The notes beneath the pieces were generated by a model, which was not told the origin of the DNA, ran no database searches, and saw nothing but the letters and a program-made list of their open reading frames with translations. A stretch of 64,000 bases of DNA from Mycolicibacterium sp. MU0050 (GTDB lineage Bacteria > Actinomycetota > Actinomycetes > Mycobacteriales > Mycobacteriaceae), in assembly GCF_963378085.1 (NCBI RefSeq), contig NZ_OY726395.1:3410001-3474000 (forward strand), read 5' to 3'. Position numbers and translations under genes: made by a program. Of this stretch, positions 41,074 to 63,969 are shown one piece after another; the stretch's first letter is position 1, and each line of letters begins with the position of its first letter.

Positions 41074-41101
41074 TGCTGTAATCCCTTCTGCGTTGCGCTG
41101 T

Positions 41102-47455: not shown

Positions 47456-48417
47456 CAGCAGGGGCTCTCCGGTAGCGGGATACAGAGATCGGTGGCCAGC
47501 AGTTCGGGACGCGCGTTCTGGGCATCGAGCACCCGCTCGATCTTGTCCCGCACTCGGCGCAACCGCGGAACGATCCGGCTGTTGTTGTCGACCCAACGGC
47601 GCACCCGGTCCTGCCACTCCCGCACCTTGAGGATGAAGTCCTCACGGTGGTTCACCCAGAATTTCGCATAGGGCACCAGGAACGCATCGGAGATGTCGCC
47701 CATCCCCTTGAGCGCCCCGGCAAACCCCTTGCCGTACAACACCAGTGTCTGCTCGAGGATCGAGAGCTTGGCGACGAGTTCGCTAAGCTTGCCGCCGTAG
47801 TTGCTCAGGCTCTCGATGTACTCGTCGGACAGGTCGAGGATCCGGGTGATCTGTCCGCGCTGACTGTCGATCGTCGCGGTCAGCGAGTTGCCCGCGTCGA
47901 TCACCGCGCTCAGCGCATCGACGTTGGTGCCATCGAGGCCGGCCTGCAGTTCGTCCAGCGATTCCCGGATCGGCCTGGTGTCCACCTCTTCGGTGACCTT
48001 CGTGGAGTCGGCCAGGGTGTCCATCAGGCTGTAGGGCATGGTGGTGCGCTCGCGCGCGATCGGCTGCTCGCCCAGCGGCTTGTCGCCCAGGGAGACCAGG
48101 TTGACGTAGTAGCCGCCGACGATGGTGAGCATCCGCACCTCGATCTGCGACTGATCGCCGACGAAGGCGCTCCCGTCGACCTTGGCGCGCACCTTGACCT
48201 GATCCTGTTCCAGCGTGAGGTCTTTCACCTTGCCCACCGTCATCCCGGCGATGCGCACGTCGTCGCCGGGTTGCACCGCCGCGACGTCGTTGGTGTAGAA
48301 CGTGACGGTCTTCTGGCCGGGGGGATTGACGTAGACGGCGGCGGCCGTCACCGCGAGCACCGCCACCAGGACCAGGGCGCTCACCCCCCAGAACATCGGG
48401 CTCTTGAACTTGCTCAC
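47455..48417 (-). CDS. mceC: Mce family protein, MceC position
   Basis: A 320-residue Mce subunit with membrane anchor (about 10-35, FWGVSALVLVAVLAVTAAAVYV), MCE domain (VTFYTNDVAAVQPGDDVRIAGMTVGKVKDLTL) and a long helical region with repeated coiled-coil-like segments. I chose GTG 48417 because it overlaps the mceB stop as GTGA; the frame is open upstream to 48495. Confidence 0.9.
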   Translation of the reverse strand: MSKFKSPMFWGVSALVLVAVLAVTAAAVYVNPPGQKTVTFYTNDVAAVQPGDDVRIAGMTVGKVKDLTLEQDQVKVRAKVDGSAFVGDQSQIEVRMLTIVGGYYVNLVSLGDKPLGEQPIARERTTMPYSLMDTLADSTKVTEEVDTRPIRESLDELQAGLDGTNVDALSAVIDAGNSLTATIDSQRGQITRILDLSDEYIESLSNYGGKLSELVAKLSILEQTLVLYGKGFAGALKGMGDISDAFLVPYAKFWVNHREDFILKVREWQDRVRRWVDNNSRIVPRLRRVRDKIERVLDAQNARPELLATDLCIPLPESPC

Positions 48418-49424
48418 TGGTTGCACAGGATCACCCGCTGTCCGTTCAGCAATACATCCATTGTCTCGGGAAGTTGCGCACGCCCCCGCGAGCACGGCAG
48501 CGGATCCTCCGGCCCCGCCGCCGGTTCGATGTTGTCCCAGATGACCGGCACGCGTTTGAAGGCGTCGCTGTAGTCGTCCAGGACGGTGAAGGCACGGTCC
48601 AGCCCTTCGTCCATATCCGCCTCGCCCGCACGGAAACCCGCGTTCTCGAGCAGTCGGACGGCCGCGGAGGTGAACGCCGGCCCGTAGAGTTCGGACTTGC
48701 GGAACTCGTCGAGAACCGAGAGCGCCGCGTCCACCGGCCGGTTCAGCCAGTCCAGGATCTGAACGAGCTTTTCGGAATGCCCGCCGAAAGTCGTCGAGAT
48801 CTCGGAGAGGTTCCCCATCAGCGTCGCGACCACCTCCTGGCGGTTGGACACGAACGAGGTCAGCGTCCTGATGCTGTCCAGCATCGGGCCCAGCCCCCCG
48901 CCGTCGCCGTGCAGGAACGACGCCACGTTGGCGGTGAACAGGTCGATGTCGTCGGGGCTCAGGGTATCGAGCACCGGCTGTAATCCGTTGAACAACTTGG
49001 TGATGTCGAACGACGGACGCGTCATGCTCAGCGGGATGTGGGTGACCAGCGAGTCACCCGGATCGTCGACTTCGGCGGCCTCGACCACGTCGATGTACCG
49101 TAACCCCGTCAGCGCCTGGTACTTGATCAGCAGCCGGGTTTCCGGCAGCACCGCGTAGCGACGGTCGAGGGTGAAATCGACCTCGGCGAAACTCTGACCG
49201 GCCGCCCGGGTCAGTCGCATGTCGCCCACCTTGCCGACCCGCAGGCCGCGGATGCGCACGTCGGCGTCGGCGTGCAAGCCGGAGATGTCACTGAATTCAG
49301 CGGTGTAGGAGCGTGTTTCAGCGGCGACGGGTTGCCGTAGCACGTTCACCGTCAGGACGAAGATCACCGAGGTGAGCGCGGCCACCAGGGCGAACCGCCA
49401 GAATGCAGGCCAGGGCTTGATCAT
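48414..49424 (-). CDS. mceB: Mce family protein, MceB position
   Basis: A 336-residue Mce subunit: membrane anchor at about 8-28 (FWRFALVAALTSVIFVLTVNVL), MCE domain (YTAEFSDISGLHADADVRIRGLRVGKVGDMRL, then LLIKYQALTGLRYIDV) and helical C-terminus. The ATG overlaps the mceA stop by 4 bp. Confidence 0.91.
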   Translation of the reverse strand: MIKPWPAFWRFALVAALTSVIFVLTVNVLRQPVAAETRSYTAEFSDISGLHADADVRIRGLRVGKVGDMRLTRAAGQSFAEVDFTLDRRYAVLPETRLLIKYQALTGLRYIDVVEAAEVDDPGDSLVTHIPLSMTRPSFDITKLFNGLQPVLDTLSPDDIDLFTANVASFLHGDGGGLGPMLDSIRTLTSFVSNRQEVVATLMGNLSEISTTFGGHSEKLVQILDWLNRPVDAALSVLDEFRKSELYGPAFTSAAVRLLENAGFRAGEADMDEGLDRAFTVLDDYSDAFKRVPVIWDNIEPAAGPEDPLPCSRGRAQLPETMDVLLNGQRVILCNQ

Positions 49425-50503
49425 GGTCCACCGATCGCGTTGACGGGCGCCTGGACGCCGGGGATCCGGTCGAGAACAAGGTGCACTTGCAGCGCCCGCT
49501 GTTCGGGCGAGCCGGCGTAGAGCTTCTCGAGGCGCGTGCGGAGTTCTGTCAGCATGTCGTCGACTCCGACCGGTGTCACCAAGGCGGGCACCGTGTCGGA
49601 CAGGGTTTGGACCAGGTCGACCACCGGACGCAGATCGGAGCTGTGCGAGGACAGCAGCTTGCCGAGCGCGCCGAAGAAGGATCCCGACATCACATCCAGC
49701 GTGACGAGGGCGCGGTCCTGCCAGAACTCCTCGGTGACCGCCATGCCGGGTTCAGCCACGACGTCCTGCCCGGGCAACGCATCCTTGCCGGAGACGTTGA
49801 ACGTCACGAATTCCTGATTGAAGGACTGTCCGGCGGCCGTGGCGTGGTCGACGAAGGATGGGAAGGCCACGCTGATCCCGGTGGTGTTCCGCATCAACTG
49901 TTCGGTGCTGACGGTCTGCACTCGGGCCAGCGTGTTGGCGCCGATCAACCCGGACTCGATCATCGGGTTGAGCCCGTCGGTGTAGCTGGTCGCCCGGTTG
50001 ATGACATCGATGAGCTGGGGGGTGATCACTCCCCCGGTGATCTCGCCCAGTTGCGAGAGCATCGTCGGCAGCGTGAAGTTGCCCACCGGGACGGTCTGGA
50101 CCTGCGCGCCGTCGCGCAGCGGCTGCCCGCCGTCGCCCGGGATGAGGTTGATGCCGGTGACCCCGAAATAGTTGGCGGGCCGGAAGTCGATACGCATGGA
50201 GTCGGTCAGCTCCACGGCGGGCGTGCCCTCGACATTGGCGTCGAGATGCACATTGCCGTCAGGTCGAACCGCCACGGCGGTGACCTCACCGACCGGTACA
50301 CCGTGCATCAGCAGCGGCGTGCCCGCCCCGACCCCCTGGCCCACGTAGGGCACATCCATCACGATCGACGTCCGGTCGGCCGGCGGCTTGGCGAACGGGT
50401 TGATGGCGACCACCAGGACTGCCGCGGCGAAGGCCGCCGCGACCCCGACCCCGATGGTGGTCAGCCTGCGGTCCTCGGCGTCTGCCGTCATACGAAATAA
50501 CAC
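49421..50503 (-). CDS. mceA: Mce family protein, MceA position
   Basis: A 360-residue Mce subunit: anchor at about 15-37 (TIGVGVAAAFAAAVLVVAI), MCE domain (SIVMDVPYVGQGVGAGTPLLMHGVPVGEVTAVAV) and helical region. The start is GTG 50503 or ATG 50491, 8 or 20 bp after the yrbEB stop; neither has a strong Shine-Dalgarno. It is the first Mce protein after the permease pair. Confidence 0.89.
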   Translation of the reverse strand: MLFRMTADAEDRRLTTIGVGVAAAFAAAVLVVAINPFAKPPADRTSIVMDVPYVGQGVGAGTPLLMHGVPVGEVTAVAVRPDGNVHLDANVEGTPAVELTDSMRIDFRPANYFGVTGINLIPGDGGQPLRDGAQVQTVPVGNFTLPTMLSQLGEITGGVITPQLIDVINRATSYTDGLNPMIESGLIGANTLARVQTVSTEQLMRNTTGISVAFPSFVDHATAAGQSFNQEFVTFNVSGKDALPGQDVVAEPGMAVTEEFWQDRALVTLDVMSGSFFGALGKLLSSHSSDLRPVVDLVQTLSDTVPALVTPVGVDDMLTELRTRLEKLYAGSPEQRALQVHLVLDRIPGVQAPVNAIGGP

Positions 50504-50510
50504 CGCGCAC

Positions 50511-51383
50511 CTATCCCTTGAAGATGAATTCCGGGCGCAAGCCCCACAGCATGATCGTGGTGGCCAAGTCCAGGACCATGATCGTCACCAGGCTCGCTCG
50601 GATGGCCCGCCCGGACGCCTCACCGACACCGACCGGTCCGCCGGAGGCGAAAAACCCGTAGTAGCAGTGGATCAGCGTCACCGCGGTGCAGTACACGGTG
50701 GCCTTGAGCAGCGCCGCCCCGATGTCCGGGAGGGTGAGGAACTGGATGAAATAGTGGTCATAGGTCCCGGCCGCCTGACCGTAGAAGACGGTGATCACCG
50801 TCACCGCCGTGTAGAAGCTGACGATGAGGGTCAGCAGGAAACCCGGTATGACGCACAGCAATCCGCCGATGACGCGGGTGCCGACCACGAACGGGATCGC
50901 CCGCAGCCCCATCGCCTCGGTGGCGTCGATCTCGTCGGCGATGCGCATCGAACCGATCTCGGCGGTCATCCGGCAACCGGCCTGCGAGGCGAACGCCACT
51001 CCCGCGACCAGCGGAGCCATCTCCCGGACGTTGCCCCACCCGCCGATGATCCCGGCCAGGGCACCGAGTCCGATCAGATCGAGGGTGGCAAAGGCCTCGA
51101 TGGCGACGATCCCGCCGACGGTGACGCCGAGGATGGCCAGCACGCTGATGACGCCGCCGTCGACGACGATCGAACCCCGGCCCCACGCCAGGTTGTTCAT
51201 CACCTGCAGCGTTTCGCGCCGGTACCGGCGGACCGTGATCGGCAGCAACCAGATGGTCTGCGCAATGAAGGTGGCCCATTGGCCGAGCTCCCGGAAGGGT
51301 GCCCGCAGCTGCTTGGTCGGGATCAGCCATGAACTGAAAAGCTTTGAGGGTGCCGAAGATCGGTGTTGTGCCGCCGTTGCCAT
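50511..51383 (-). CDS. yrbEB: YrbE (MlaE-like) permease, second copy
   Basis: A 290-residue integral membrane permease of the Mce lipid importer, with five or six hydrophobic segments and the MlaE blocks LAWGRGSIVVDGGVISVLAILGVTVGG, GWGNVREMAPLVAGVAFASQAGCRMTAEIGSMRIADEIDATEAMGL (EQ-loop-like ATPase contact) and the C-terminal GGPVGVGEASGRAI. With YrbEA it forms the inner-membrane channel energised by an MceG/MlaF ATPase encoded elsewhere. The ATG shares one base with the yrbEA stop; GTG 51386 is an alternative. Confidence 0.92.
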   Translation of the reverse strand: MATAAQHRSSAPSKLFSSWLIPTKQLRAPFRELGQWATFIAQTIWLLPITVRRYRRETLQVMNNLAWGRGSIVVDGGVISVLAILGVTVGGIVAIEAFATLDLIGLGALAGIIGGWGNVREMAPLVAGVAFASQAGCRMTAEIGSMRIADEIDATEAMGLRAIPFVVGTRVIGGLLCVIPGFLLTLIVSFYTAVTVITVFYGQAAGTYDHYFIQFLTLPDIGAALLKATVYCTAVTLIHCYYGFFASGGPVGVGEASGRAIRASLVTIMVLDLATTIMLWGLRPEFIFKG

Positions 51384-52264
51384 CACGCCACCGCCATCGG
51401 GAAGAACATCGTCTGCAACTGGGTGATCACCAGGTTGACGACCACGATCAGGATGACGTTGAGCACCACCGAGGCGTTCACCGCGTCGGCGACACCGCGC
51501 GGTCCGCCCTTGGCCTCCATACCGCGCTGGGAGGAGATGATCGCCACGATCGAGGCGAAGACGAATCCCTTGCCCATGGTGAACCACAGGTCGGTCATCT
51601 TCGCGAAGGACCCGAACGAGATCCAGAAGCTGCCGGGCGTCACGTCGTTGACCACCGTGGCGATCAGGAATGCCGCCCCCACACCCATCGCGATCACGAT
51701 GGTGACCAGGATCGGCGTGATCAGCAGCAGCGCCAGGAACCGCGGGACCACGAGGCGCCGAACGGGATCGATCCCCAGCGTGCGCAGCGCATCGAGTTCC
51801 TCGCGGATGGCCCGGGCACCGAAGTCGGACGCGATCGCGGCCGCGGCCGCACCACCCATCAGCAGCCCCGCCGTCACCGGCGCGCCCTGGCGCAGGACGG
51901 CCACCCCGGTTGCCGACCCGACGAGCGAGTTGGCACCCACCTCGTTGACGAGGCCGGACAGCTGCACCGCGACCATCGCCCCGAAGGGAATCGCCATCAG
52001 GATCGCCGGCAGCACGGTCACCCGGAGCAGGATCCAGGCCTGAGACATGGTCTCCCCAAAGGGAAGTCGCAGCGTCAGCGTGTCGGTCACGGCGTACCGG
52101 AACACCGACGCGGCCAGCAGGACACCCCGGCCGGTGGTGGCCGCGCTGTGCACCGGAATCTCCGCGAGCCGTCCGGCGGCGCCGGCCGCGGCGGACCCGA
52201 CCGCGGCCGCGATGGGCCGTGGTCGGGTATCCGCCGCAGGCGGCGCGGTTTGAGTCACCGTCAT
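51383..52264 (-). CDS. yrbEA: YrbE (MlaE-like) permease, first copy
   Basis: A 293-residue permease paired with YrbEB. MlaE blocks: PFGAMVAVQLSGLVNEVGANSLVGSATGVAVLRQGAPVTAGLLMGGAAAAAIASDFGARAIREELDALRTLGIDPVRRLVVPR, the EQ-loop-like ATPase contact. Its start is preceded by GAGGAGAG and, just upstream, by two copies of an 18 bp tandem repeat. Confidence 0.93.
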   Translation of the reverse strand: MTVTQTAPPAADTRPRPIAAAVGSAAAGAAGRLAEIPVHSAATTGRGVLLAASVFRYAVTDTLTLRLPFGETMSQAWILLRVTVLPAILMAIPFGAMVAVQLSGLVNEVGANSLVGSATGVAVLRQGAPVTAGLLMGGAAAAAIASDFGARAIREELDALRTLGIDPVRRLVVPRFLALLLITPILVTIVIAMGVGAAFLIATVVNDVTPGSFWISFGSFAKMTDLWFTMGKGFVFASIVAIISSQRGMEAKGGPRGVADAVNASVVLNVILIVVVNLVITQLQTMFFPMAVA

Positions 52265-52282
52265 TACGGTCGGCTCTCCTCG

Positions 52283-52318: not shown

Positions 52319-52348
52319 AATGCCAAACCCTTTGTCTACGCCCGAACT

Positions 52349-52543
52349 TCAGGAACTGATTCGGATGGCCTGGATGGGACAGCGTTTGCCTGCCAGCGTG
52401 ACTGCTTCCGCCAGCGAGGCGTCGGGGGTGTCGGTGAGCAGACGCACCTGCTCGTCGTCGTCCTCGAGCGCGAACACCTCCGGCGCCAAGCCGACACAGA
52501 CCCCGTGGCCTTCGCAACGGCCGTAATCGATCTCGACTTTCAT
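52349..52543 (-). CDS. 3Fe-4S type ferredoxin
   Basis: A 64-residue ferredoxin of the P450-partner type: MKVEIDYGRCEGHGVCVGLAPEVF at the N-terminus, with CEGHGVC where a fourth cysteine is replaced by His (3Fe-4S pattern), and the distal CPIQAI. It should carry electrons to the P450 encoded immediately upstream (10 bp). I used ATG 52543. Confidence 0.92.
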   Translation of the reverse strand: MKVEIDYGRCEGHGVCVGLAPEVFALEDDDEQVRLLTDTPDASLAEAVTLAGKRCPIQAIRISS

Positions 52544-52553
52544 CGTCACCCCA

Positions 52554-53777: not shown

Positions 53778-53944
53778 GGTTCTAACCCTTTCTTTGTGGC
53801 GGCTGCCTGCCCCGCTGGGCCAGGTGCTCGCGCAGCGCGCCCGTTCCGTGCGTGATGTCGGCTGAACCCCACTGGGCTCGCCGGACAGGGGCTCGATCTC
53901 GAATGTGGTCGCCCCCTCCGGCGATCCGCAGTGTGGTGGATCAC

Positions 53945-53974
53945 ATACTAAGCACACTGTTGACACAGAATCAA
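53945..53974 (-). promoter_or_regulatory. Promoter of the P450-ferredoxin-mce operon
   Basis: On the minus strand TTGATT (53974-53969) and TAGTAT (53950-53945) are 18 bp apart, a plausible sigma-A-type promoter about 165 bp before the P450 start. Its -35 box lies within operator A. Confidence 0.5.
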
Positions 53975-53988
53975 TGACTTGAAGTCGA
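53960..53988. promoter_or_regulatory. Shared operator, copy A
   Basis: TTGAC-ACAGA-ATCAA followed by TGACT-TGA-AGTCGA. It is a double dyad shared with copies C and D (both halves) and B (first half). Confidence 0.7.
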
Positions 53989-54011
53989 AAAGGTTTTCGC
54001 GAGGTGTGACG

Positions 54012-54023
54012 TAAGTTTACTTA
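54012..54023. promoter_or_regulatory. TAAGT-TT-ACTTA dyad
   Basis: A perfect 5+2+5 inverted repeat lies midway between operators A and B. It does not match the shared operator and may bind another factor. Confidence 0.35.
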
Positions 54024-54115
54024 TACTGCGCAACCCCCGGTCAACAGGGCAAATGCACCAACCCGGAGCTTGTCATCTTATTTACGGCGGCGACAAGTCC
54101 ATGCTGCCGCACTCC

Positions 54116-54135
54116 TTGACACCAAGTCAATGACC
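54116..54135. promoter_or_regulatory. Shared operator, copy B
   Basis: TTGAC-ACCAA-GTCAA then TGACC; the second dyad of the other copies is missing. TTGACA (54116-54121) with TAGTAA (54139-54144), 17 bp apart, could be the reductase promoter, overlapped by the operator. Confidence 0.6.
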
Positions 54136-54240
54136 GGGTAGTAAGTGACCCAGACGACACGCTTGCGGAGTCGAACCAACGTAGAGCCGCGCCTGGATCC
54201 GAACGCATCTGGCCGCGGGCATCGAATTGCGGGGAACCAC

Positions 54241-55215
54241 ATGACACTGCCCCTCCAGGAGGAGAGCATCAGTACCACCTACACCATCGACCTTGCCGTA
54301 CGAGAGGTCCGGCCAGTGGCGGAGGACTGCATCGTGATGGTTCTGGAGACGGCCGACGGCAGCGAGCTGCCTGAGTGGTCGCCCGGTGCCCACATCGACC
54401 TGATCCTCGGCGACGATCTCGTTCGGCAGTACTCACTGTGCGGTGACCCCGCCGACCGATCCCGCTGGCGCATCGGGATCCTGCGTGAGCCGGAGAGCCG
54501 CGGCGGCTCCGAGTTCCTCCACGACTCGGTGCGCGCAGGCGCCGCGCTGAGCGCACGCGGGCCGCGCAATCACTTTCCGTTGCAGCCCAGCGACCACTAC
54601 CTGTTCGTCGCCGGCGGCATCGGAATCACCCCGATACTGACCATGATCCACGCCGCGGAACGCGAGGGCGCGTCGTGGCGGCTGCTCTACGGCGGACGGC
54701 GTCGCGACTCGATGGCCTTTCTCGACGAGCTCGCGGGGTTCGGCGACAAGATCCAAGTGTGCCCCCAGGATGAATGTGGCCTCCTGGATCTGGCGTCCTA
54801 TCTGAGTGCGGCCCCGGCCGGCGCCGCCGTATATTGCTGTGGGCCAGAGCCGTTGATCGCCGCCACCGAGGAGATTTGCGCGGCCAAGGCTTTGCCGCTG
54901 CACGTCGAGCGGTTCGCACCGAGGCAGGACGCCGACGTCGGCGCGAACGAGGAATTCGAAGTGGTCTGCGCGGAATCCGGTGTCACCGTCACGGTGCCGG
55001 CCGATTCGACGATCCTGGCCGAGGTCCGCAAGGTGGGTATCGAGGTCCTCAGTTCGTGCTCCGAGGGCACCTGCGGGACCTGCGAGGCCGACGTCCTCGA
55101 GGGTGAGCCGGATCATCGCGACTCGGTGTTGACCCCCCAGGAACGCGCGAGCAACGAGTCGATGATGATCTGCGTCTCCCGCTGCGTCGGCAAGCGCTTG
55201 GTCCTGGATCTTTGA
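54241..55215 (+). CDS. Phthalate-dioxygenase-reductase type oxidoreductase (flavin, NAD, 2Fe-2S)
   Basis: A 324-residue electron-transfer reductase. Domains in order: flavin domain with RQYSL (62-66), NAD-binding domain with VAGGIGITP (123-131) and CCGPEP (199-204), and a C-terminal plant-type 2Fe-2S domain with C273, C278, C281 and C311. This order is that of phthalate dioxygenase reductase/VanB. No Rieske oxygenase is encoded nearby, so it may serve the divergent P450-ferredoxin. The ATG at 54241 is preferred to an open extension to 54145. Confidence 0.91.
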   Translation: MTLPLQEESISTTYTIDLAVREVRPVAEDCIVMVLETADGSELPEWSPGAHIDLILGDDLVRQYSLCGDPADRSRWRIGILREPESRGGSEFLHDSVRAGAALSARGPRNHFPLQPSDHYLFVAGGIGITPILTMIHAAEREGASWRLLYGGRRRDSMAFLDELAGFGDKIQVCPQDECGLLDLASYLSAAPAGAAVYCCGPEPLIAATEEICAAKALPLHVERFAPRQDADVGANEEFEVVCAESGVTVTVPADSTILAEVRKVGIEVLSSCSEGTCGTCEADVLEGEPDHRDSVLTPQERASNESMMICVSRCVGKRLVLDL

Positions 55216-55555
55216 CCGACGAGGCATTCGACGTCGTCGTCGTCGGGCCGGCGCGGGCGGCGTTGCGGCCACGGCACTGCTGGTGAAGCGGGGCTACCGG
55301 ACCCTGTTGGTCGAACGCGCGGCACAGGTCGACGGCCGCGCCTCCACGGTCGGCATCGACGGGTTCGGGATCAACACCGGTGCACAGATATTCGAGCTCG
55401 GCGGCGCCAACAAAGAACTCTTCGACGAACTCGGCGTCCCCTGCGGGCCCGCCGTCAGGCCAAGCCGTTGGTGCTTCGCATGGGGCAATATCGGTCCGGT
55501 CGCGGCCGGCCAACTCGTGACGGCCGCGCAGTGGCCCGTCGGCTATCTGCGGTGA
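55212..55555 (+). pseudogene. Frameshifted and truncated FAD/NAD(P)-binding oxidoreductase
   Basis: A TTG at 55212 overlaps the reductase stop and starts EAFDVVVV, the entry to a dinucleotide fold. At about 55248 one base appears to be missing: shifting frame restores GAGAGGVAATALLVKRGYRTLLVERAAQVDGRAST, a GxGxxG motif of phytoene-desaturase-like oxidoreductases. The restored frame then ends at 55555, so only about 114 of the usual 400-500 residues remain. Both a frameshift and a C-terminal loss point to a decayed gene; a sequencing error could explain only the first. Confidence 0.75.
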
Positions 55556-55619
55556 ACGAACAGGTTCCGCTGGATTGAGGTCGGGCGGGCCGCGGTTCCC
55601 CGCGGCCCGCCCCGACCCA

Positions 55620-56837
55620 TCAGAGCATGTCGGGTTCGACGATCCCCGGTTCGATGCCCAGCAGGTGACGGCCGGCCTGTTCGTAGCTGATCTGCGAGTT
55701 GAAGATCACGTGCCGGGAGCCGGTCGCGAAGTCACGCCAATACCGTTGCGCCGGAGCGGTGGTCGAGAATCCCGACGATCCGCCCAGATCCATCAGGAGC
55801 TCGATGGCGTCGTGCAGAAGGCGGATGACCAGCGCCCCGGCGCCGCGGGCCTCGGTGCGCTCGTCGATCGACTGCACGCGGCCCTCGCAGGCGGCCTGGT
55901 CGATGCGCGAGCACGAGTCGTCGACCAACCTCTTGGCGGCCTGGATCATCGTGGTGGCCTCACCGATGGCGGCGTGGTACGCCGACGAGTCACGCTTCTG
56001 CGCGTAGGCACTGTAGAGGATGGGACTGCCGCTCTTGGCCACGGCCACGTCGAGCAGACCCTCGGCGCACCCGACCAGGACGCCGAGTGCCTTCGCGCGC
56101 AGAATCGGGTAGTTGACCCAGTAATCGCTGGCGACGCGCACCGATTCGTCGATGGTGGCCGGCGGCGCCACCGCGATGTCCGAGAACGCGGCGATCATGT
56201 TCGCCGGCACCCGCACATCGTTGACGACGACGGTGTCCGAACCCGTCCCCTTCATCCCCGCGACGCGCCAGGTGTAGTCCAGTTCCACATCCGCCATCGG
56301 CATGACGGCCAGCACCGGCAGTTGCTCCGGGGACAGCGCCGGGACCATCGTCCACGCGGCGTGGTGGGAACCCGTGGCGTAGCTCCATTTCCCGGCCAAC
56401 TTGAAGGAATCGCCGTCGGGGACCAGGTGCCCGATCCCGTTCTGCGGCGAGCAGATCAGCGGAACTCCGTCGGCGAACATCTGGTCCTGGATGCCGGCCG
56501 GCAGCTTGGAGGCGAACCACAGGCAGGAGTTGTAGATCGTGTAGACCCACGCCGTCGACGGACAACCCTTGGCCAACTCGGCCGCGACGTTGGCCATCGA
56601 TCGGCACGACTGCGCCAAACCACCCACGCGAGCCGGCCCGGCCATGGCGAACACACCGATCTCGGTGAGCTTGTCGACCACCTCTTGGCTCAGCTCGCTG
56701 TGCTGCTCGTGTTCGTCGGCCTTGCCCTCGAGCAGCGGGCGTACCGCCCTGGCGCGGGAGACAAGCTCGTCCGCCAGCTCGTCGTTGAACCCGGCCAGCG
56801 AGCGCGCCGCCGGCTTGACGTCCTGATCGATCGACAT
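55620..56837 (-). CDS. HsaA-like flavin-dependent monooxygenase (acyl-CoA dehydrogenase fold)
   Basis: A 405-residue protein of the acyl-CoA dehydrogenase-fold, two-component monooxygenase group that includes HsaA: LVSRARAVRPLLEGKADEHEQHSELSQEVVDKLTEIGVFAM, KGCPSTAWVYTIYN, LAGKWSYATGSHHAAW and the C-terminal DLGGSSGFSTTAPAQRYWRDFATGSRH with the catalytic-site His region. It would hydroxylate a phenol with FMNH2/FADH2 from a partner reductase; none of the HsaB type is encoded in the window. The start MSIDQD at 56837 is chosen by homology and AAAGG upstream; it has a leader of about 250 bp from the predicted promoter. Confidence 0.85.
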   Translation of the reverse strand: MSIDQDVKPAARSLAGFNDELADELVSRARAVRPLLEGKADEHEQHSELSQEVVDKLTEIGVFAMAGPARVGGLAQSCRSMANVAAELAKGCPSTAWVYTIYNSCLWFASKLPAGIQDQMFADGVPLICSPQNGIGHLVPDGDSFKLAGKWSYATGSHHAAWTMVPALSPEQLPVLAVMPMADVELDYTWRVAGMKGTGSDTVVVNDVRVPANMIAAFSDIAVAPPATIDESVRVASDYWVNYPILRAKALGVLVGCAEGLLDVAVAKSGSPILYSAYAQKRDSSAYHAAIGEATTMIQAAKRLVDDSCSRIDQAACEGRVQSIDERTEARGAGALVIRLLHDAIELLMDLGGSSGFSTTAPAQRYWRDFATGSRHVIFNSQISYEQAGRHLLGIEPGIVEPDML

Positions 56838-57101
56838 GGATGTACTACCTTTCTGGATGAAACGTCGGATTCGCCTAGTGCGCAACCGAATACAACAACG
56901 GCCGCGCGGGCGGCCCGGACCGGTCCTGAGCGAACGCATTTCCGTAGGCACGTCGGCGAACCGGTCTTTCGTCCCGGGCGACCAGGCCTGCGACAAGTGC
57001 GCTCCGGAACGCGGCACTGTCACCGACGCGCGCTTCCATCCCGCCTCCCGAATGCCCTGACCCCACGGCGTTCGACCACCTAGACCGGTGGTACACGTCA
57101 C

Positions 57102-57129
57102 AGCATATCTCGCATTGACTAAATGTCAA
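57102..57129 (-). promoter_or_regulatory. Promoter of the HsaA-like gene
   Basis: TTGACA (57129-57124) and TATGCT (57107-57102), 16 bp apart on the minus strand. The -35 box is one arm of operator C. Confidence 0.5.
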
Positions 57130-57143
57130 TGACTCAAAGTCGA
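57115..57143. promoter_or_regulatory. Shared operator, copy C
   Basis: TTGAC-TAAAT-GTCAA followed by TGACT-CAA-AGTCGA; the first dyad is perfect. It has the same orientation and internal spacing as copy A. Confidence 0.72.
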
Positions 57144-57284
57144 TGACACGGACATGCGCCATCGCGAGAGGTCGTGGGACGGTCAATCAGGCTCGACGTT
57201 CGCGCAATGAAGCACGGAAGACGTTGCGATGCAGTAAGACAACTACCCAACCGCGCGGATCAGCGCGCGTCGGGCAAGGGCGGC

Positions 57285-57941
57285 TTACGTGTCGGCACGC
57301 AGTTGTTCGATCGCCTTCTCCACCGACGGCTGCAAGGTCGGATCGAGCCGGGCAGCGCCACGCAGCGCCTCGATGGTCTGCTCGAACAGCACGTCGCCGA
57401 GCGCCTTGACTTCGAAGGGCTGGCCGTTCTGATGCCAGAACGCCGCGACGGCATCGACGGTCGCGGTCGCGGCACTGAGCATCATGCGCAGCGCCGGCTT
57501 CTCCGGGTCGAGACCCAGCGCGGTGCAACCCCGCGCGATCTCTTGCCAGCGTTGATCTTCGAAGAAGGCCCACGCCTCGGGGTCGGCCCCCCGGCCGCCG
57601 AGCACCAGGCGCGTGGCCAGGCCGCGGTGGCGCGCCAGGTAAGCGAACTGGTTGTAGTACCGCTGCCGCATCTGGGCACCGGGCGGCAGGTCGGGGTCGT
57701 TGTGATGGGCGGCGTCGAACTCACGGGCCGCCTCTTCCATGGCCGCGAGATAAAGTCCGCGCTTGTTCTTGAAGTAGTGGAACAGCAAACCGTGCGCCAC
57801 CCCGGCCGAGGTCGCGATGTCGCTCACGGCGACGGCGTCGTAATGCTGCGCCGAGAATGCTTCCACCGCAACGTCAAGGATCCGGCGGCGAGTCTCCTCC
57901 GCCTGAGCCTTCCGGGCAGACATATCCGCCTTCGTACTCAC
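57285..57941 (-). CDS. TetR family regulator of the ring-degradation genes (inferred)
   Basis: A 218-residue TetR protein: HTH at about residues 30-62 (YDAVAVSDIATSAGVAHGLLFHYFKNKRGLYLAAM) and an all-helical ligand domain. The GTG at 57941 has AGAGGGG 6 bp upstream. It is encoded between operators C and D, divergent from the VOC-FAH operon, and is the only regulator gene among the four operator copies, so it is the best candidate for binding them. The ligand is probably a pathway intermediate or its CoA ester. Confidence 0.86.
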   Translation of the reverse strand: MSTKADMSARKAQAEETRRRILDVAVEAFSAQHYDAVAVSDIATSAGVAHGLLFHYFKNKRGLYLAAMEEAAREFDAAHHNDPDLPPGAQMRQRYYNQFAYLARHRGLATRLVLGGRGADPEAWAFFEDQRWQEIARGCTALGLDPEKPALRMMLSAATATVDAVAAFWHQNGQPFEVKALGDVLFEQTIEALRGAARLDPTLQPSVEKAIEQLRADT

Positions 57942-58018
57942 AAGTGCCCCTCTGCAATCGACCCCACTAGTACCCATTCGGCATATCTGCCCAGGCTAAC
58001 GCATCAAACCACAAAGTT

Positions 58019-58047
58019 TCGACTTCGAGTCATTGACTATAAATCAA
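58019..58047. promoter_or_regulatory. Shared operator, copy D
   Basis: On the plus strand TCGACT-TCG-AGTCA then TTGAC-TATAA-ATCAA: the same double dyad as A and C in the opposite orientation, as expected for a divergent gene pair. Confidence 0.72.
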
Positions 58048-58061
58048 CAACGTTCTAGTGT
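58033..58061 (+). promoter_or_regulatory. Promoter of the VOC-FAH-AacS-hydroxylase operon
   Basis: TTGACT (58033-58038) and TAGTGT (58056-58061) with a 17 bp spacer lie about 130 bp before the VOC start. The -35 lies inside operator D, a good geometry for repression. Confidence 0.55.
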
Positions 58062-58191: not shown

Positions 58192-58764
58192 ATGACAGTT
58201 CGACCTCGTCTAGCGCATTTCGTGCTGCAAACCGCCCAGCTCCCGGCGATGCGGGATTGGTACCTGAAAGTCCTTGGCGCTCACGCCGTTTACGAGAACG
58301 AAGCGATGTCCTTCCTGACTTTCGACGAGGAACATCACCGGGTCGCCCTCCTCGGTCTGCCGCCGGGCGTGCTCGCCGACCGCACGCCGCTGACGACGGG
58401 TATGGCCCACTCGGCCTTCACCTTCCCCACCCTGGGTGATCTGCTCGACAAGTACCTGGAGTTGAAGGCCGAGGACATCCATCCGCGGGTGCCCGTGCAA
58501 CACGGGTTGACCACGTCGATCTACTACCGCGATCCGGACGGCAACATGGTCGAACTCCAGATCGACAACTTCGCGACACCCGACGAGGCGACCGAGTACA
58601 TGTTGGGCCCCGAGTACGCCGCGGACCCGATCGGCCCCAGCTTCGATGTCGACGAGTTGATCAAGGCCTATCGCGGCGGCACCCCGGAAGCCGAACTCAT
58701 CACGCGCACCTGGGCCAAGACCACCCCGCAGGTGAACCCCTTCGAACTTCTCACCACGGCCTAG
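58192..58764 (+). CDS. VOC-superfamily (extradiol dioxygenase-like) protein
   Basis: A 190-residue single-domain vicinal oxygen chelate protein. Candidate metal ligands are H9 in LAHFVLQT, the His in HHRVALLGL (about residue 50) and Glu in GNMVELQIDN (about 122), the 2-His-1-Glu pattern of type I extradiol dioxygenases. YRDPDGNMVE is a hallmark. It may cleave a catecholic ring, or act as an isomerase. The start is ATG 58192 with GGAG upstream. It heads a five-gene plus-strand operon. Confidence 0.85.
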   Translation: MTVRPRLAHFVLQTAQLPAMRDWYLKVLGAHAVYENEAMSFLTFDEEHHRVALLGLPPGVLADRTPLTTGMAHSAFTFPTLGDLLDKYLELKAEDIHPRVPVQHGLTTSIYYRDPDGNMVELQIDNFATPDEATEYMLGPEYAADPIGPSFDVDELIKAYRGGTPEAELITRTWAKTTPQVNPFELLTTA

Positions 58765-58782: not shown

Positions 58783-59637
58783 ATGCGCCTGATCAACCTC
58801 GCCGGCCGGGCCGCCCTGGACCAGGGCGGAACCGCCGTCGACATCGAAGAAGCCAGCGCCGGGCGGTTCTCGGCCGCGTTCCAGGACCTGCTGGAGCGCT
58901 GGGACGAATTCCGGGACTGGGCAGCCACACTCGGTGACGCCGACCGCCGGCCGTTCGAAGAGGCCGAGTTGGCAGCGCCCGTCGGCACACCTCGCCAGAT
59001 CTTCGCGATCGGCCTCAACTACCGCAGCCACGCCGAGGAAACCGGGATCGACATCCCCGACACCCCGATGGTGTTCACCAAGTTCGCTTCCTCGATCACC
59101 GGGCCCTACGACGACGTCGTCATGCCCCCGGGTTCGGTGGACTGGGAGGCGGAACTGGTCGCGGTCATCGGCCGCCGCGCCGACGGCGTCGCAGTGGAAC
59201 GGGCCTGGGAGCACGTCGCGGGCCTGACGGTCGGCCAGGACCTGTCCGAGCGCGACCTGCAGGTCAAACCGCCTGCCCCGCAACAGTTCAGCCTGGCCAA
59301 GTCGCATCCCGGGTTCGCGCCACTGGGCCCGGCCCTGGTGACGCCGGACGAATTCGCCAACCCCGACGACCTCGAGATCAGCTGCGCGATCGACGATCAG
59401 CAGGTCCAGCAGGCCCGCACCGGGGACCTGATCTTCACGGTGCCGTTCCTGGTGTCCTACCTCTCCGGCATCCTGCCGCTGCTGCCCGGGGACCTGATCT
59501 TCACCGGGACCCCGTCGGGCATCGGATTCGCCCTGAACCCCCCGCGGTACCTGCGCGACGGTGAACGGCTGTCGACCTACGTCGAGGGCATCGGCACCAT
59601 GCGCAACCGGATGACGGCCGCCAAGGCGCGCGGATGA
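58783..59637 (+). CDS. Fumarylacetoacetate hydrolase family protein
   Basis: A 284-residue FAH-fold protein: an N-terminal domain of about 70 residues and the catalytic domain with AIGLNYRSHAEETG, FTKFASSITGPYDDVV, DWEAELVAVIGRRA (metal-binding E-x-E/D positions) and ILPLLPGDLIFTGTPSGIGF. Members hydrolyse the C-C bond of acylpyruvates, or hydrate or decarboxylate meta-cleavage products. Next to a ring-cleaving VOC and an acetoacetyl-CoA synthetase, a role releasing acetoacetate is attractive but inferred. It overlaps the next gene by ATGA. Confidence 0.9.
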   Translation: MRLINLAGRAALDQGGTAVDIEEASAGRFSAAFQDLLERWDEFRDWAATLGDADRRPFEEAELAAPVGTPRQIFAIGLNYRSHAEETGIDIPDTPMVFTKFASSITGPYDDVVMPPGSVDWEAELVAVIGRRADGVAVERAWEHVAGLTVGQDLSERDLQVKPPAPQQFSLAKSHPGFAPLGPALVTPDEFANPDDLEISCAIDDQQVQQARTGDLIFTVPFLVSYLSGILPLLPGDLIFTGTPSGIGFALNPPRYLRDGERLSTYVEGIGTMRNRMTAAKARG

Positions 59638-61586
59638 GCGTGCTCTGGGAGCCCTCGCAGCAGCTGCTGCAGGACAGCCGAATGGGGCGCTACGCCCGGG
59701 AACTGGTCGAACGCGGCACTGTGACGACGCCCGACTATCACGAGCTATGGCGCTGGTCGACAACCGAATTGGCCGAGTTCTGGCGCTCGGTCTGGGACTA
59801 CTTCGGCATCCTCGCCGACGGCGACACCGGCCGTGCCCTGCTCGACGACACGATGCCGGGCGCGCAGTGGTTTCCCGACGTCCGCCTCAACTACGCGGAG
59901 AACATGCTGCGCGGCGACGAGGACCAGACCGTCCTCACCGCGATCTCCCAGTCGCGCGAGGTGATCACGCTGACCAGGGGTGAGCTCCGCGACCAGGTGG
60001 CCCGCGCGGCCGCGGGGTTGCGACGGCTGGGCGTCGAACCGGGCGACCGCGTCGCCGCCTATCTGCCCAACATTCCCGAGGCCCTGGTGGCGATGCTGGC
60101 GACGACCAGCATCGGTGCCGTCTGGGCGGTGTGCGCGCCCGAGCTGGGGGTCGACAGCGTCTTGGACCGACTGCAGCAGTTGTCCCCCAAGATCTTCATC
60201 GCCGTCGACGGATATCAGTACGGCACCAAGTCGATTGACCGTACCGAGCACGTCGCGGCCATCCGGGCCGCACTGCCCAGCGTGGTGCACACCGTCTCGG
60301 TTCCCTACCTCGGCGCAGGCCCCGACGGCACGACTACATGGACCGAGCTACTGGCCGAACCGGCCGCGCCGGACTATCTGCGGGTACCCTTCGACCAGCC
60401 CCTGTGGGTGCTGTTCTCCTCCGGCACCACCGGTCTGCCCAAAGCCATCGTGCACTCCCACGGCGGCATCACCCTCGAGTTGCAGAAGGCCCTGGGGCTG
60501 CATTCGGATCTCGGCGCCGACGACACCTACTTCGTCTACTGCACCACCACCTGGGTGATGTGGAACATCCAGGTCTCCGCGCTACTGCTGGGTGCCAGGA
60601 TCGTGCTGTTCGACGGCGATCCGGCCCACCCGGGGCCGGATGAGCTGTGGCGCACGGTCGCCGACCACGGGGTGACCGTATTCGGCGCCGGCGCAGCGTT
60701 TCTCATGGGCTGCCGCAAGGCCGGTATGCGGCCCGGGCAGAGCTTCGATCTCGGCAAACTGCGCGCCATGACCTCCACCGGCTCACCGTTGCCGGCCGAG
60801 GGGTTCCACTGGGTCTACGACGCCATCGGCCCCGGCATCTATCTGCAGTCCACCAGCGGCGGTACCGACGTGTGCACCTCGTTCGTCGGGGGCACACCGC
60901 TGCTGCCGGTGCGGGCCGGAGAGATCACCGCTCCGGCGCTCGGCGTGCTGGCCCGGGCCTTGGACCCGGCCGGCAATCCGGTCGTCGACGAACTCGGGGA
61001 ACTCGTCATCTCCGCACCGATGCCCTCGATGCCGGTGTGCTTCTGGAACGACCCGGACGGGACCAAGTATCGAGGGGCCTACTTCGAGCACTACCCCGGC
61101 CAGTGGCGCCACGGCGACTGGGTCACGTTCAACAGCCGCGGCGCCTGCGTGATCAGCGGTCGCTCCGACGGCACGCTGAACCGCGGCGGGGTCCGCCTGG
61201 GTACCAGTGAGTTCTACTCCGCGCTCGACGACGTTCCGGAAGTCCAGGACAGTCTGGTGGTCCACCTCGACGACCCGTCCGGCGGATCGGGTTCGCTGCT
61301 GCTGTTCGTGCAACTCTCCGACGGCGTCGCCCTCGATAACGATCTGCGCCGCGGCATCAACAGTCAGCTGCGGCAGCGGCTTTCGCCCCGGCATACGGCC
61401 GACGAGATCCACGCGATCCCGGCGGTCCCCTACAACCTCACCGGCAAGAAGCTCGAGGTACCGGTCAAGCGCCTCCTCACGGGTGCGCCCCGCGCCACCG
61501 TCGTCTCCGACGGCGCGGTCCGCAATCCCGAGGCGCTGGATGTCTTCGAGCAACTGGCGGACAGCCTCGCGGCGGCGCACTCATGA
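59634..61586 (+). CDS. aacS: Acetoacetate-CoA ligase
   Basis: A 650-residue ANL ligase matching acetoacetyl-CoA synthetase in length and sequence: an N-terminal Acs-like domain (WEPSQQLLQDSRMGRYARELVERG), P-loop LFSSGTTGLPKAIVHSHGG (about residue 262), HGDWVTFNSRGACVISGRSDGTLNRGGVRLGTSEFY and the catalytic Lys in NLTGKKLEVPVK. It forms acetoacetyl-CoA from acetoacetate, ATP and CoA. Its position directly after the FAH gene suggests it salvages pathway-derived acetoacetate. Confidence 0.92.
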   Translation: MSVLWEPSQQLLQDSRMGRYARELVERGTVTTPDYHELWRWSTTELAEFWRSVWDYFGILADGDTGRALLDDTMPGAQWFPDVRLNYAENMLRGDEDQTVLTAISQSREVITLTRGELRDQVARAAAGLRRLGVEPGDRVAAYLPNIPEALVAMLATTSIGAVWAVCAPELGVDSVLDRLQQLSPKIFIAVDGYQYGTKSIDRTEHVAAIRAALPSVVHTVSVPYLGAGPDGTTTWTELLAEPAAPDYLRVPFDQPLWVLFSSGTTGLPKAIVHSHGGITLELQKALGLHSDLGADDTYFVYCTTTWVMWNIQVSALLLGARIVLFDGDPAHPGPDELWRTVADHGVTVFGAGAAFLMGCRKAGMRPGQSFDLGKLRAMTSTGSPLPAEGFHWVYDAIGPGIYLQSTSGGTDVCTSFVGGTPLLPVRAGEITAPALGVLARALDPAGNPVVDELGELVISAPMPSMPVCFWNDPDGTKYRGAYFEHYPGQWRHGDWVTFNSRGACVISGRSDGTLNRGGVRLGTSEFYSALDDVPEVQDSLVVHLDDPSGGSGSLLLFVQLSDGVALDNDLRRGINSQLRQRLSPRHTADEIHAIPAVPYNLTGKKLEVPVKRLLTGAPRATVVSDGAVRNPEALDVFEQLADSLAAAHS

Positions 61587-61615: not shown

Positions 61616-63379
61616 ATGTCCGATACCAAGGTCCCCGTACTGATCGTCGGCGGCGGCGCCTCCGGTCTGATGACCTCGATCATGCTGTCGTGTCACGGAA
61701 TCGACCACATCCTCGTCGAACGTCACGAGGGCACGTCGATCCTGCCGAAGGCGCACTACCTGAATCAACGGGCGATGGAGCTGTTCCGTCAGTTCGAGGT
61801 CGCCGACGACATCTACGCCGTGGGCACGCCGACGGAGAAGATGGCCTCGGTGGTCTGGCAGACCACCCTCGCCGGGGACGGGCCGCTGCAGCGCAAGACC
61901 TTCTACAAGATGGACTGTTTCGGCGGTGGCGCGCTCACCGAGCAGTACCTGCGCGACAGTGCGAGCCGGTCGACCAACTATCCGCAGCTGCGCCTGGAAC
62001 CCATCATGCGCCAGCACGCCGAGAAGCGTGCGGCGGGACGGATTCTGTTCCATCACGAGCTGACCGAGATGAGCCAGAGCGACGACGCGGTCACCGCGAC
62101 GATCCGCGATCGCTCGTCGGGCGAAACCTTCACCGTCACCGCCGATTACCTCGTCGGCGCCGACGGCGGCAAGACCATCGGCCAGATGATCGGCGCCACG
62201 ATGGTCGGCGCCCACGACTTGCTCGACATCGTCACCGCGCACCTGAAGGCGGATCTGTCCCCGTGGTGGGAAGACGATGTGCTGATCGCGCATTTCATCA
62301 ATCCGGAGGCCGGGTCGTACCCGTCCGGCGGCAACATGGTGCAGATGGGCCCGACGTGGGGCAAGCACTCCGAGGAGTGGGCCTTCCATTTCGCGTTCCT
62401 GCCCACCGACGACTCCGACCTCGACGAGCAGGCGATCTCGGCCAAGATCCGGGAACTGCTGGGGGTCGGCGACATGCCGATGGAGATCCTGCGCATCAGC
62501 CACTGGTCGGTGCAGGGTTCGGTCGCCGACAAGTACTCGCAGGGCCGGGTCTTCCTGGTCGGCGACGCGGTGCACCGCCACCCGCCGACCACGGGACTGG
62601 GCATGAACACCTGTGTGCAGGACGCGCAGAACCTGGCCTGGAAGCTGGCGGCCGTGCTCAAGGGCCAGGCCGGCCCGGCGCTGCTGGACACCTACGCCGC
62701 CGAGCGGCAACCGGAGGGGTTGCGGATCGTCGACTGGGCGCTGCACACCATGCAGAACCATTTCGTGGTCGACTCGGGAATCGGGCTGCTGCCGGTCCCG
62801 GTGCCCCCGGAGATGCACCGCGGGGTGTTCGAGATCTTCTTCTCCGACACCCCGATGGGCGCCGCCCGCCGGGCCCGCTTCGAAGAGGTGGTCAAGACCC
62901 AGCGGGTCGAGTTCCAGGCCCACGACCTGGAACTCGGCATCGCCTACGCCGCGGGCGCGCTCGTGCCGGACGGCTCGGCGCCGCCGCCGGTCGATCCGAT
63001 GGGATCGGTCTATCACCCGACGTCGCGGCCGGGTCACCGGTTGCCGCACGCCTGGCTCGAGCACGCCGGCAACCGGGTCTCCACCCACGACCTCGCCGGC
63101 AACGACGGCCGGTTCGTCCTGATCACCGGGGCGCGGGGGCAGGCGTGGGCCGACGCGGCGGCCGCGGCCGCCGAGCGGTTCGGGGTGACCATCTCGGTCG
63201 CGTCGATCGGCGGCGACTACCGCGACGTGGACGGCCAGTGGGCCGAGGTCGGCGAGATCGCCGACGACGGTGCGATTCTTGTGCGTCCCGACAACTTTGT
63301 CGCCTGGCGCAGTACGACTTCGGCCGCCAATCCGGCCGATGAGCTTGCCGGCGCCGTAGGCGCTGTCTTGTCCCGCTGA
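61616..63379 (+). CDS. Class A FAD-dependent aromatic hydroxylase (MhpA/PheA type)
   Basis: A 587-residue FAD_binding_3 monooxygenase. The ADP-binding motif is LIVGGGASGLMTSIML (about residues 7-22), the DG-type motif is LVGADGGKTIG (about 177), and the GD motif is VFLVGDAVHRHPPTTGLGMNTCVQDAQNLAWKL (about 310-342). The last 90 or so residues form a thioredoxin-like domain as in phenol hydroxylases. It should hydroxylate a phenolic ring using NAD(P)H and O2, upstream of ring cleavage by the VOC protein. GAAAGAGG precedes the ATG. Confidence 0.91.
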   Translation: MSDTKVPVLIVGGGASGLMTSIMLSCHGIDHILVERHEGTSILPKAHYLNQRAMELFRQFEVADDIYAVGTPTEKMASVVWQTTLAGDGPLQRKTFYKMDCFGGGALTEQYLRDSASRSTNYPQLRLEPIMRQHAEKRAAGRILFHHELTEMSQSDDAVTATIRDRSSGETFTVTADYLVGADGGKTIGQMIGATMVGAHDLLDIVTAHLKADLSPWWEDDVLIAHFINPEAGSYPSGGNMVQMGPTWGKHSEEWAFHFAFLPTDDSDLDEQAISAKIRELLGVGDMPMEILRISHWSVQGSVADKYSQGRVFLVGDAVHRHPPTTGLGMNTCVQDAQNLAWKLAAVLKGQAGPALLDTYAAERQPEGLRIVDWALHTMQNHFVVDSGIGLLPVPVPPEMHRGVFEIFFSDTPMGAARRARFEEVVKTQRVEFQAHDLELGIAYAAGALVPDGSAPPPVDPMGSVYHPTSRPGHRLPHAWLEHAGNRVSTHDLAGNDGRFVLITGARGQAWADAAAAAAERFGVTISVASIGGDYRDVDGQWAEVGEIADDGAILVRPDNFVAWRSTTSAANPADELAGAVGAVLSR

Positions 63380-63417: not shown

Positions 63418-63969
63418 ATGGTGACCCATCCGAATCTGAAACCAGATTTCGAGGAGCCGATCGCACTGTTCGGCAGCGATCCGCAGGACGTGGCGGACAT
63501 CGCCAAGATGGAGAAGGACGCCGAGCGCGTCTACAACAACGAGTGGTTGAAGGTCTACGACGCCCCGCTGAAGTACTACGCGGACCACGAGGACGTCAGC
63601 TTCATCGACATCCTCTCCCCCGGTGAGTATTTCGGTGACGATGTGCGGAAATGGTTCATGTACATCAGCCCGCAGTTCGTCGGCGACTTCGGTCTGATCA
63701 ATATGCGGATCTACGCCAAGAACGGCGTCGGCTTCGTGTACATGAACCAGACCTACCAGGGCAAGCTCGAGGACGGTTCGGAGTTCGTCTGGAAGATGCG
63801 CCAGACCGATACCGTCGAGAAGATCGACGGTGAGTGGAAGATCCTGCACACCCACCTGTCGTTCGCGGCGGTGCCCGAGGCCAAGCATCCCGACCGCTGG
63901 CAGGTCGACCGCGAGTACCCGAAGCGTCCGCCGGCCTGGGAAGTCAGCGCCAAGCTGGCCGGGGGCTGA
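63418..63969 (+). CDS. SnoaL/NTF2-like protein
   Basis: A 183-residue NTF2-like protein (SnoaL_3 type): YNNEWLKVYDAPLKYYADHEDVSFIDILSPGEYFGDD, GFVYMNQTYQGKLEDGSEFVWKMRQTDTVEKIDGEWKILHTHLSFA. The block EKIDGEWKILHTHLS is typical of the superfamily. It may be an isomerase or binding protein of the pathway. GAGGAGGA precedes the ATG 38 bp after the hydroxylase stop, so it belongs to the same operon. Confidence 0.82.
   Translation: MVTHPNLKPDFEEPIALFGSDPQDVADIAKMEKDAERVYNNEWLKVYDAPLKYYADHEDVSFIDILSPGEYFGDDVRKWFMYISPQFVGDFGLINMRIYAKNGVGFVYMNQTYQGKLEDGSEFVWKMRQTDTVEKIDGEWKILHTHLSFAAVPEAKHPDRWQVDREYPKRPPAWEVSAKLAGG

Follow-up and report, generated by a model that had tools for sequence, protein, structure and literature searches.

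Which protein reads the four copies of the palindrome TTGAC-N5-RTCAA that lie in a catabolic gene cluster of Mycolicibacterium sp. MU0050, and what would it switch? The stretch in question, hereafter the window, comprises 64,000 nt of that genome (GCF_963378085.1, NZ_OY726395.1, positions 3,410,001-3,474,000, forward strand); coordinates are those of the window unless another sequence is named, L-numbers denote loci and G-numbers genomes, with L021 a stretch running past the window end. A preliminary description had placed the four copies over the promoters of four transcription units and had named a TetR-family regulator encoded among them (57285..57941, minus strand) as the protein that controls them. 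We consider it quite probable that this TetR is a substrate-induced local repressor of a regulon for the uptake and degradation of a lipophilic phenol, a reading in which the sites, their conservation, their promoter geometry and their linkage to this TetR clade are observed, and in which we infer binding, repression, ligand, substrate and transport from DNA sequence.

The operator sites and their paired layout

Exact matches to TTGAC-N5-RTCAA on either strand of the window are confined to 53960-53974, 54116-54130, 57115-57129 and 58033-58047, the four places given in the preliminary description, and their number exceeds chance, 300 dinucleotide-preserving shuffles of the window having yielded 0.057 matches on average and at most 2. 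At up to two mismatches the pattern shows no excess in the window (43 matches vs. a shuffle mean of 45.6). The genome scan which that description called for gave the same answer, as the extended pattern TTGAYN5RTCAATGAC matches these four sites alone exactly in all 5,224,726 bases. Single boxes as such are not rare, with 25 genome-wide at up to two mismatches against 34 for a control pattern; it is their clustering that carries the signal, nine of the 25 lying in one 15.6-kb stretch.

Searching the genome with a 29-bp composite of palindrome and adjacent dyad, at up to three mismatches, returned four matches, those at 53960, 57115 and 58033 and a new site, whilst the reversed control pattern returned none. 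This fifth composite lies 11.4 kb downstream and 5.5 kb past the window, at genome position 3479491 (window-equivalent 69491-69519; L021:7491-7519), upstream of a gene for a 123-aa protein that is merely DUF4267-like (19.7 bits against a cut-off of 27.8). Its promoter, read by eye, has a -35 of TTGAGA within the main box, 17 bp and then TACAGT, the layout found at the window sites. The composite is kept in the close genome G447 with three mismatches and was not seen in M. aurum or M. pinniadriaticum at the three-mismatch limit. A MarR-MFS gene pair stands on its opposite side.

Three of the four copies had been described as sharing an adjacent TGACT-N3-AGTC dyad at fixed spacing. The places and the spacing stand, and the dyad itself needs correction: it is the 15-bp operator, TTGACTnnnAGTCAA, once more, displaced by 14 bp from the first copy and overlapping it by a single base. 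We call the main copy box A and the shifted copy box B. We trained a position matrix on 22 TetR loci outside the window type, which supplied 33 exact sites (L132 and L147 of the 22 hold no site, and the four Gln-type loci introduced below were left out). Scanned across the 64 kb, it ranks the seven window boxes among the eight best positions, the main boxes scoring 16.8-23.1 and the adjacent dyads 14.5-16.6; the position that follows these eight scores 9.0, and the lowest of the seven boxes 14.5. Because a matrix trained on foreign loci ranks all seven boxes at the top, we treat dyad and main box as one element. The remaining member of the eight, at rank 6, is a lone box at 28219-28233, TTGATTTGTAATCAA, which stands without a second box or any visible link to the cluster.

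At the promoter of the cytochrome P450 and mce genes, box A (53960..53974, an exact TTGACN5RTCAA match scoring 16.8 and kept in four genomes) is accompanied, 14 bp away and upstream of the -35, by a conserved box B (53974..53988, 16.6). Box A of the HsaA-like gene promoter (57115..57129, exact) has the best score of the window, 23.1, and a conserved box B at 57129..57143 (14.5). At the VOC operon promoter, divergent from tetR, box A occupies 58033..58047 (exact, 20.8) and the conserved box B 58019..58033 (14.5). The reductase promoter has a single box (54116..54130, exact, 23.0), a second one being absent there (matrix score -0.8). All boxes are given without strand.

The paired layout recurs elsewhere. 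In 28 sequences (a part each of the window and of L021, then L052, L184 and 24 loci of the His type defined below), 64 of the 92 positions scoring at least 12 have a second box (score at least 4) within 45 bp, where about 8 would be expected by chance; pairs in which both boxes score at least 12 are counted twice. The offset was 14 in 46 cases, 17 in 10, 19 in 3 and of other lengths in 5. Such constancy suggests two dimers side by side, an arrangement in which QacR is known to bind. No Rfam family reached threshold in 52000-58300.

The probable regulator of the sites

The TetR protein (212-218 aa; 218 aa in its database entry) has a single TetR_N domain (PF00440, 53.5 bits against a cut-off of 24) and the recognition helix VAHGLLFHYF, and what a member of this family would require as operator, a palindrome over its target promoters, appears to be present. 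Relatives occur in 15 of 201 family genomes at an E-value of 1e-40 and in 16 of 297 genus genomes at 1e-35, both counts including the window's own; an order-wide search of 397 genomes returned just four genomes, all already known, the window's own among them. We compared 11-20 kb around each relative (28 loci of other genomes) and two named loci; L053 and L146 are one and the same M. pinniadriaticum DNA, which was counted once in the site enrichment and the TetR alignment.

Across 29 TetR-bearing genomes, 39 of the 126 exact TTGACN5GTCAA sites fall inside the TetR loci, where 0.44 would be expected if they were evenly spread, and 33 of 115 do so once the three window-type genomes are removed. 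Ranked among 13,312 five-base dyads (spacers 0-12), TTGAC-N5-GTCAA comes first, in 20 of the 26 other TetR loci against 0.15 expected, and it is first again in each subset (12 of 13 loci in other genera, 8 of 13 in Mycobacterium). This ranking deliberately excludes the window-type loci L145 and L146; because it uses simple base composition, GC-rich dyads such as TCGAC-N12-GTCGA also rank high. Loci picked by TetR homology alone hold the exact dyad in four genera, and the operator is found directly upstream of the TetR gene where the other neighbours differ (e.g. L150, L184 and L186).

Helix and operator also change together. The window TetR and the aligned His-type relatives share VAHGLLFHYF, whose His44 aligns with Gln38 of Tn10 TetR, a residue that reads bases. 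Gln replaces this residue in four Mycobacterium relatives (L151, L154, L155 and L159), and TGAGT-N3-ACTCR stands in the tetR promoter at three of these four loci and nowhere in 492 kb of 25 His-type loci; TGACT-N3-AGTCR has 48 strand-counted matches in His-type loci and none in 65 kb of Gln-type loci. Since the four Gln44 proteins are each other's closest relatives (64-82% identity vs. ~50%), the change counts as a single evolutionary event. Enrichment, dyad ranking, the foreign-trained matrix and the joint change of helix and operator, computational tests independent of the window, support at the level of sequence the earlier proposal of the TetR at 57285-57941 as cognate regulator of the sites.

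Several observations pull the other way. An exact TTGACN5GTCAA is missing at six of the 26 other TetR loci, namely L132, L147 and the four of Gln type. The Gln44 covariation is one event with few sites: L155 has half a site at its tetR promoter and one TGACT-N3-AGTCC away from that promoter, and searching the genus (297 genomes) for the Gln-type operator yielded 11 matches, two of them at known Gln-type loci and nine lacking a related helix within 1.5 kb. That the P450 and mce genes share one transcript we infer. The related module on the Rhodococcus plasmid pNit (L184, below) has no exact box, and the one candidate box of its mce operon, at 15093, is weak. Finally, of 31 genomes in which no TetR relative passed the E-value limits, nine hold exact TTGACTN3AGTCAA (11 sites at 10 loci).

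On reading those 10 loci, the general rule that every TTGACTN3AGTCAA marks such a TetR failed. Two carry a TetR of lower identity (33% and 30%) whose helix contains AHGL, at one the site lies inside a reading frame, and at seven (L189-L192, L194, L195 and L197, mycobacteria in which the TetR was not found) the TTGACTnnnAGTCAA site is flanked by CTCTAAGT and is easily confused with the operator studied here. A MerR-like gene accompanies six of these seven, with its full signature at five and its start alone at L192; at L195 the MerR signature was not seen, and a weak, partial TetR match lies 4.5 kb away. Pfam was run on one of the seven, L189, and the gene beside the flanked sites is presumably dnaE. 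Ten control loci with other inner bases gave no TetR match at E 0.001. The box alone is therefore not diagnostic, since it also occurs, linked to MerR, without this TetR.

These MerR-linked sites, and the MarR gene that flanks the fifth composite, raise the possibility that the window sites are operators of another regulator, of MerR type or that MarR, with the TetR a bystander. We regard this as improbable: the CTCTAAGT flank of the seven sites is absent from window positions 53901-58100, and a bystander would account neither for the exact dyad in homology-chosen loci of four genera, nor for a site directly upstream of tetR among differing neighbours, nor for the coupled change of recognition helix and operator.

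Promoters, genes and the proposed switch

By eye, one half of each main box forms a -35 hexamer, followed after 16-18 bp by a plausible -10. On the minus strand, the predicted P450-ferredoxin-mce promoter (53945..53974) has TTGATT (53974-53969), 18 bp and TAGTAT (53950-53945), and that of the HsaA-like gene (57102..57129) TTGACA, 16 bp and TATGCT, scoring 10/12 in a promoter scan. On the plus strand, the predicted reductase promoter (54116..54144) has TTGACA (54116-54121), 17 bp and TAGTAA (54139-54144), and that of the operon for the VOC, FAH, AacS and FAD phenol hydroxylase (FMO) proteins (58033..58061) TTGACT (58033-58038), 17 bp and TAGTGT (58056-58061). A strict sigma-70 scan scores, of these four, the HsaA-like promoter (57129) alone.

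Three intergenic regions were aligned between the window, G447, M. aurum and M. pinniadriaticum; the informative genomes are the latter two, G447 differing very little from the window. The operators are kept in all four as conserved islands amid more diverged DNA, which bears out, for syntenic loci, the motif conservation that the preliminary description had suggested looking for and, together with near-consensus boxes at a related gene set on pNit, supports its assignment of the sites to four units. The -10 of the P450 promoter, TAGTAT, is invariant in the four genomes; that of the VOC operon, TAGTGT in the window, is TACTGT in M. aurum and M. pinniadriaticum; that of the HsaA-like gene, TATGCT, becomes TAAGCT and TAGGCT in the others; and that of the reductase, TAGTAA, varies among the four and makes this the least conserved promoter. 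A plausible -35 under every copy, as first claimed, holds by eye and through -10 conservation at three promoters, with the strict scan scoring just one. The copy at 58033 had been called flipped, as expected for a divergent unit, and so it is: box B, where present, lies upstream of the -35, and this promoter reads the plus strand.

A place upstream of the -35 would also suit an activator. That the TetR binds the sites as an activator or mixed regulator is about as improbable as the bystander explanation, as box A overlaps the -35 and spacer at all four promoters and the single-box reductase promoter has that position only. Very improbable indeed is the view that the repeats are mere TTGACA-like -35 elements and no regulator sites, which fits the hexamers and their plausibly spaced -10 elements but leaves unexplained the inverted second half, the fixed-offset second copy upstream of the -35 and the TetR link in other genera.

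Repression by the TetR would then work as follows. A dimer would bind TTGACTnnnAGTCAA as local repressor, and the two overlapping boxes, shifted by 14 bp, would probably hold two dimers at three window promoters and at the fifth promoter outside. The dimer on box A would block the -35: with the hexamer and half the spacer under the main box, RNA polymerase would be kept off the promoter, and the second dimer on box B may strengthen this block at three promoters. The regulon would comprise the P450-ferredoxin-mce unit, the reductase, the HsaA-like monooxygenase, the VOC-FAH-AacS-FMO-SnoaL unit, probably tetR itself, and the DUF4267-like gene beyond the window. Autoregulation of tetR seems likely, because the divergent region between tetR and the VOC operon holds a composite and some relatives have a composite directly upstream of tetR, although a conserved tetR promoter could not be made out there. 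The pathway substrate or an early intermediate, imported by the Mce system, would bind the TetR and release it from the DNA, upon which the enzymes would attack a lipophilic phenol as in the ipp pathway (see below), by hydroxylation and cleavage.

On the minus strand, the P450 (52554..53777) has CYP125MRCA, by name an ancestral CYP125, as its best solved match, followed by many others with CYP142 further down. Between P450 and mce lies a gene for a 64-aa single-cluster ferredoxin (52349..52543, minus strand; Pfam Fer4_15) that was missing from the earlier gene list. The mce operon (44389..52264, minus strand; start codons not refined) combines MlaE-type permeases (51383-52264 and 50511-51350) with six MlaD-domain proteins, the gene content by which a Mce importer is recognised; the three of the six Mce proteins tested against NCBIfam TIGR00996 are divergent, scoring 88, 39.7 and 104.5 bits, below the cut-off of 140.5. 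P450, ferredoxin and importer together suggest a larger, lipid-like substrate.

The reductase (54241..55215, plus strand) is a FAD/NAD/2Fe-2S protein of the PDR/VanB type, as its pNit counterpart is annotated. The HsaA-like gene (55620..56837, minus strand) encodes the oxygenase component of a group D flavin monooxygenase that stays below the NCBIfam HsaA cut-off (166.6 vs. 450 bits) and whose nearest solved structures are XiaF and then 3-HSA hydroxylase. The plus-strand operon encodes a VOC extradiol dioxygenase (58192..58764) 69% identical to BphC3 of Rhodococcus globerulus, a FAH-family hydrolase (58783..59637), an acetoacetate-CoA ligase (AacS, 59634..61586; 870.5 bits against a cut-off of 639), the FAD phenol hydroxylase (61616..63379), of the 2,4-dichlorophenol 6-/2-hydroxybiphenyl 3-monooxygenase type, and a SnoaL-like protein (63418..63969) with a pNit counterpart 62% identical. 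A short-chain dehydrogenase (SDR) gene (40339..41388, minus strand), which has a 62% identical counterpart on the margin of the pNit cluster, is a possible outlying member.

Between the reductase and HsaA-like genes, 55216-55560 holds a short remnant resembling the start of a FAD oxidoreductase, and the corresponding interval measures ~1.3 kb in G447 and ~0.1 kb in M. aurum and M. pinniadriaticum. Downstream of mce, 41575-44349 contains four frames without a Pfam match, one of them 46% identical to the gene that ends the pNit mce operon; further neighbours (36886-40256) are an acetamidase/formamidase gene and, beside it, a divergent periplasmic binding protein gene.

Plasmid pNit of Rhodococcus rhodochrous ATCC BAA-870 carries counterparts of most of the gene set: TetR (61% identity), P450 (70%), VOC (71%), HsaA-like (62%), FMO (70%), AacS (67%), FAH (61%), reductase (57%), permeases (61-63%), Mce proteins (29-42%), SnoaL and SDR (62% each) and DUF7065 (59%); its module adds a flavin reductase as well as an ABC ATPase. 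No pNit match was obtained for the DUF4267-like gene, MarR, MFS, a dikinase gene and three of the four small frames that follow mce, the ferredoxin not being part of this search. Five pNit boxes, each one mismatch from TTGACN5GTCAA (L184 7057, 7154, 10260, 25642 and 27192), lie in four intergenic regions that serve VOC/HsaA-like, reductase/flavin reductase-P450, SnoaL and tetR. The module is adjoined by integrase, XerD-type recombinase and transposase genes (L184 27552-34483), neighbours which suggest that it moves. Elsewhere, G270 has a different mce operon with its own composite operator at two mismatches (L158:9287-9315), a Streptomyces plasmid TetR gene (36% identical) has a composite upstream at one mismatch, and the region of a Rhodococcus fascians TetR (40% identical) has a single one-mismatch box ahead of a P450 gene. 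The proposed tie between a lipid-type importer and an aromatic ring pathway draws on gene content and conservation, the pNit mce operon having no stronger box of its own than the weak candidate.

More tentatively, at somewhat below even chances, these genes could form a self-contained module for import, degradation and sensing of a lipophilic non-steroid phenol in mycobacteria and on a Rhodococcus plasmid, in which a dedicated Mce importer would feed P450 and ipp-like ring cleavage under one TetR, of a subfamily readable from one helix residue (His44 with TGACT, Gln44 with TGAGT) and bound as a pair of dimers to operators that overlap at a 14-bp shift. Few Mce importer substrates are known, namely steroids and fatty acids. 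With a Mce importer and phenol-cleaving enzymes under one conserved switch, the ligand that releases the TetR would be a direct route to a new Mce substrate, and the operator, taken with its paired layout and TetR neighbour, could be used to mark related catabolic clusters across several genera of actinobacteria.

Comparison with known systems

The preliminary description called the regulon undescribed, and this holds as far as searches of the open-access literature reach: five literal forms of the operator were absent from it and no description of the regulon was recognised there. An earlier description may exist, since the motif logos of a survey of mycobacterial TetR proteins (PMC4482099) are images and lay outside these searches.

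KstR, a mycobacterial TetR repressor acting on short promoter palindromes, joins lipid degradation and the mce4 import operon in one regulon, with motif TnnAACnnGTTnnA and predicted direct control of 83 and 74 genes in two species (PMC1995591). The window system is likewise of TetR type, with short promoter palindromes and an mce operon in its set, yet its regulon is local and its sites are TTGACTnnnAGTCAA and not TnnAACnnGTTnnA. KstR-like regulation was rejected on this difference and on a score of 35.6 bits against the NCBIfam KstR cut-off of 280. Mce3R, a TetR-type repressor of an mce operon, consists of two fused TetR units and has two 25-bp non-palindromic sites (PMC11667970); a regulation of this kind was rejected as well, the window protein having one TetR domain and a palindromic operator.

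EdcR of Caenibius tardaugens is a local repressor of an aromatic-steroid degradation cluster which acts at a palindrome over promoters, TnnCnnTACnAnTnGTAnnGnnA (PMC8700777). Its operator lies over the -10, whereas that of the window, TTGACTnnnAGTCAA, lies over the -35. The estrogen (aed) pathway was not adopted as the identity of the cluster, the ipp enzyme set fitting better, a judgement made without aed sequence comparison.

The ipp cluster of Rhodococcus sp. D-6, for degradation of 2-isopropylphenol, comprises a HsaA-like oxygenase, the dioxygenase IppB of the BphC2/BphC3 clade, a FAH protein and an acetoacetyl-CoA synthetase, its genes all being up with 2-isopropylphenol present; the text of the paper names no TetR regulator (PMC12442392). 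A flavin reductase partner, the counterpart of IppA2, was not found among the open reading frames scanned (window 36886-63969 in part, and L021 to 10970), whereas pNit has one. Beyond the ipp set, the window holds the P450, the ferredoxin, the PDR-type reductase, the FAD phenol hydroxylase and the mce importer. The same four enzyme kinds (HsaA-like, BphC2/BphC3-clade dioxygenase, FAH and AacS) recur in the window, and we therefore consider the core of the cluster, judged by its enzyme set, to be an ipp-like phenol pathway, for which action on an alkylphenol by way of an alkylhydroquinone is at most a prediction.

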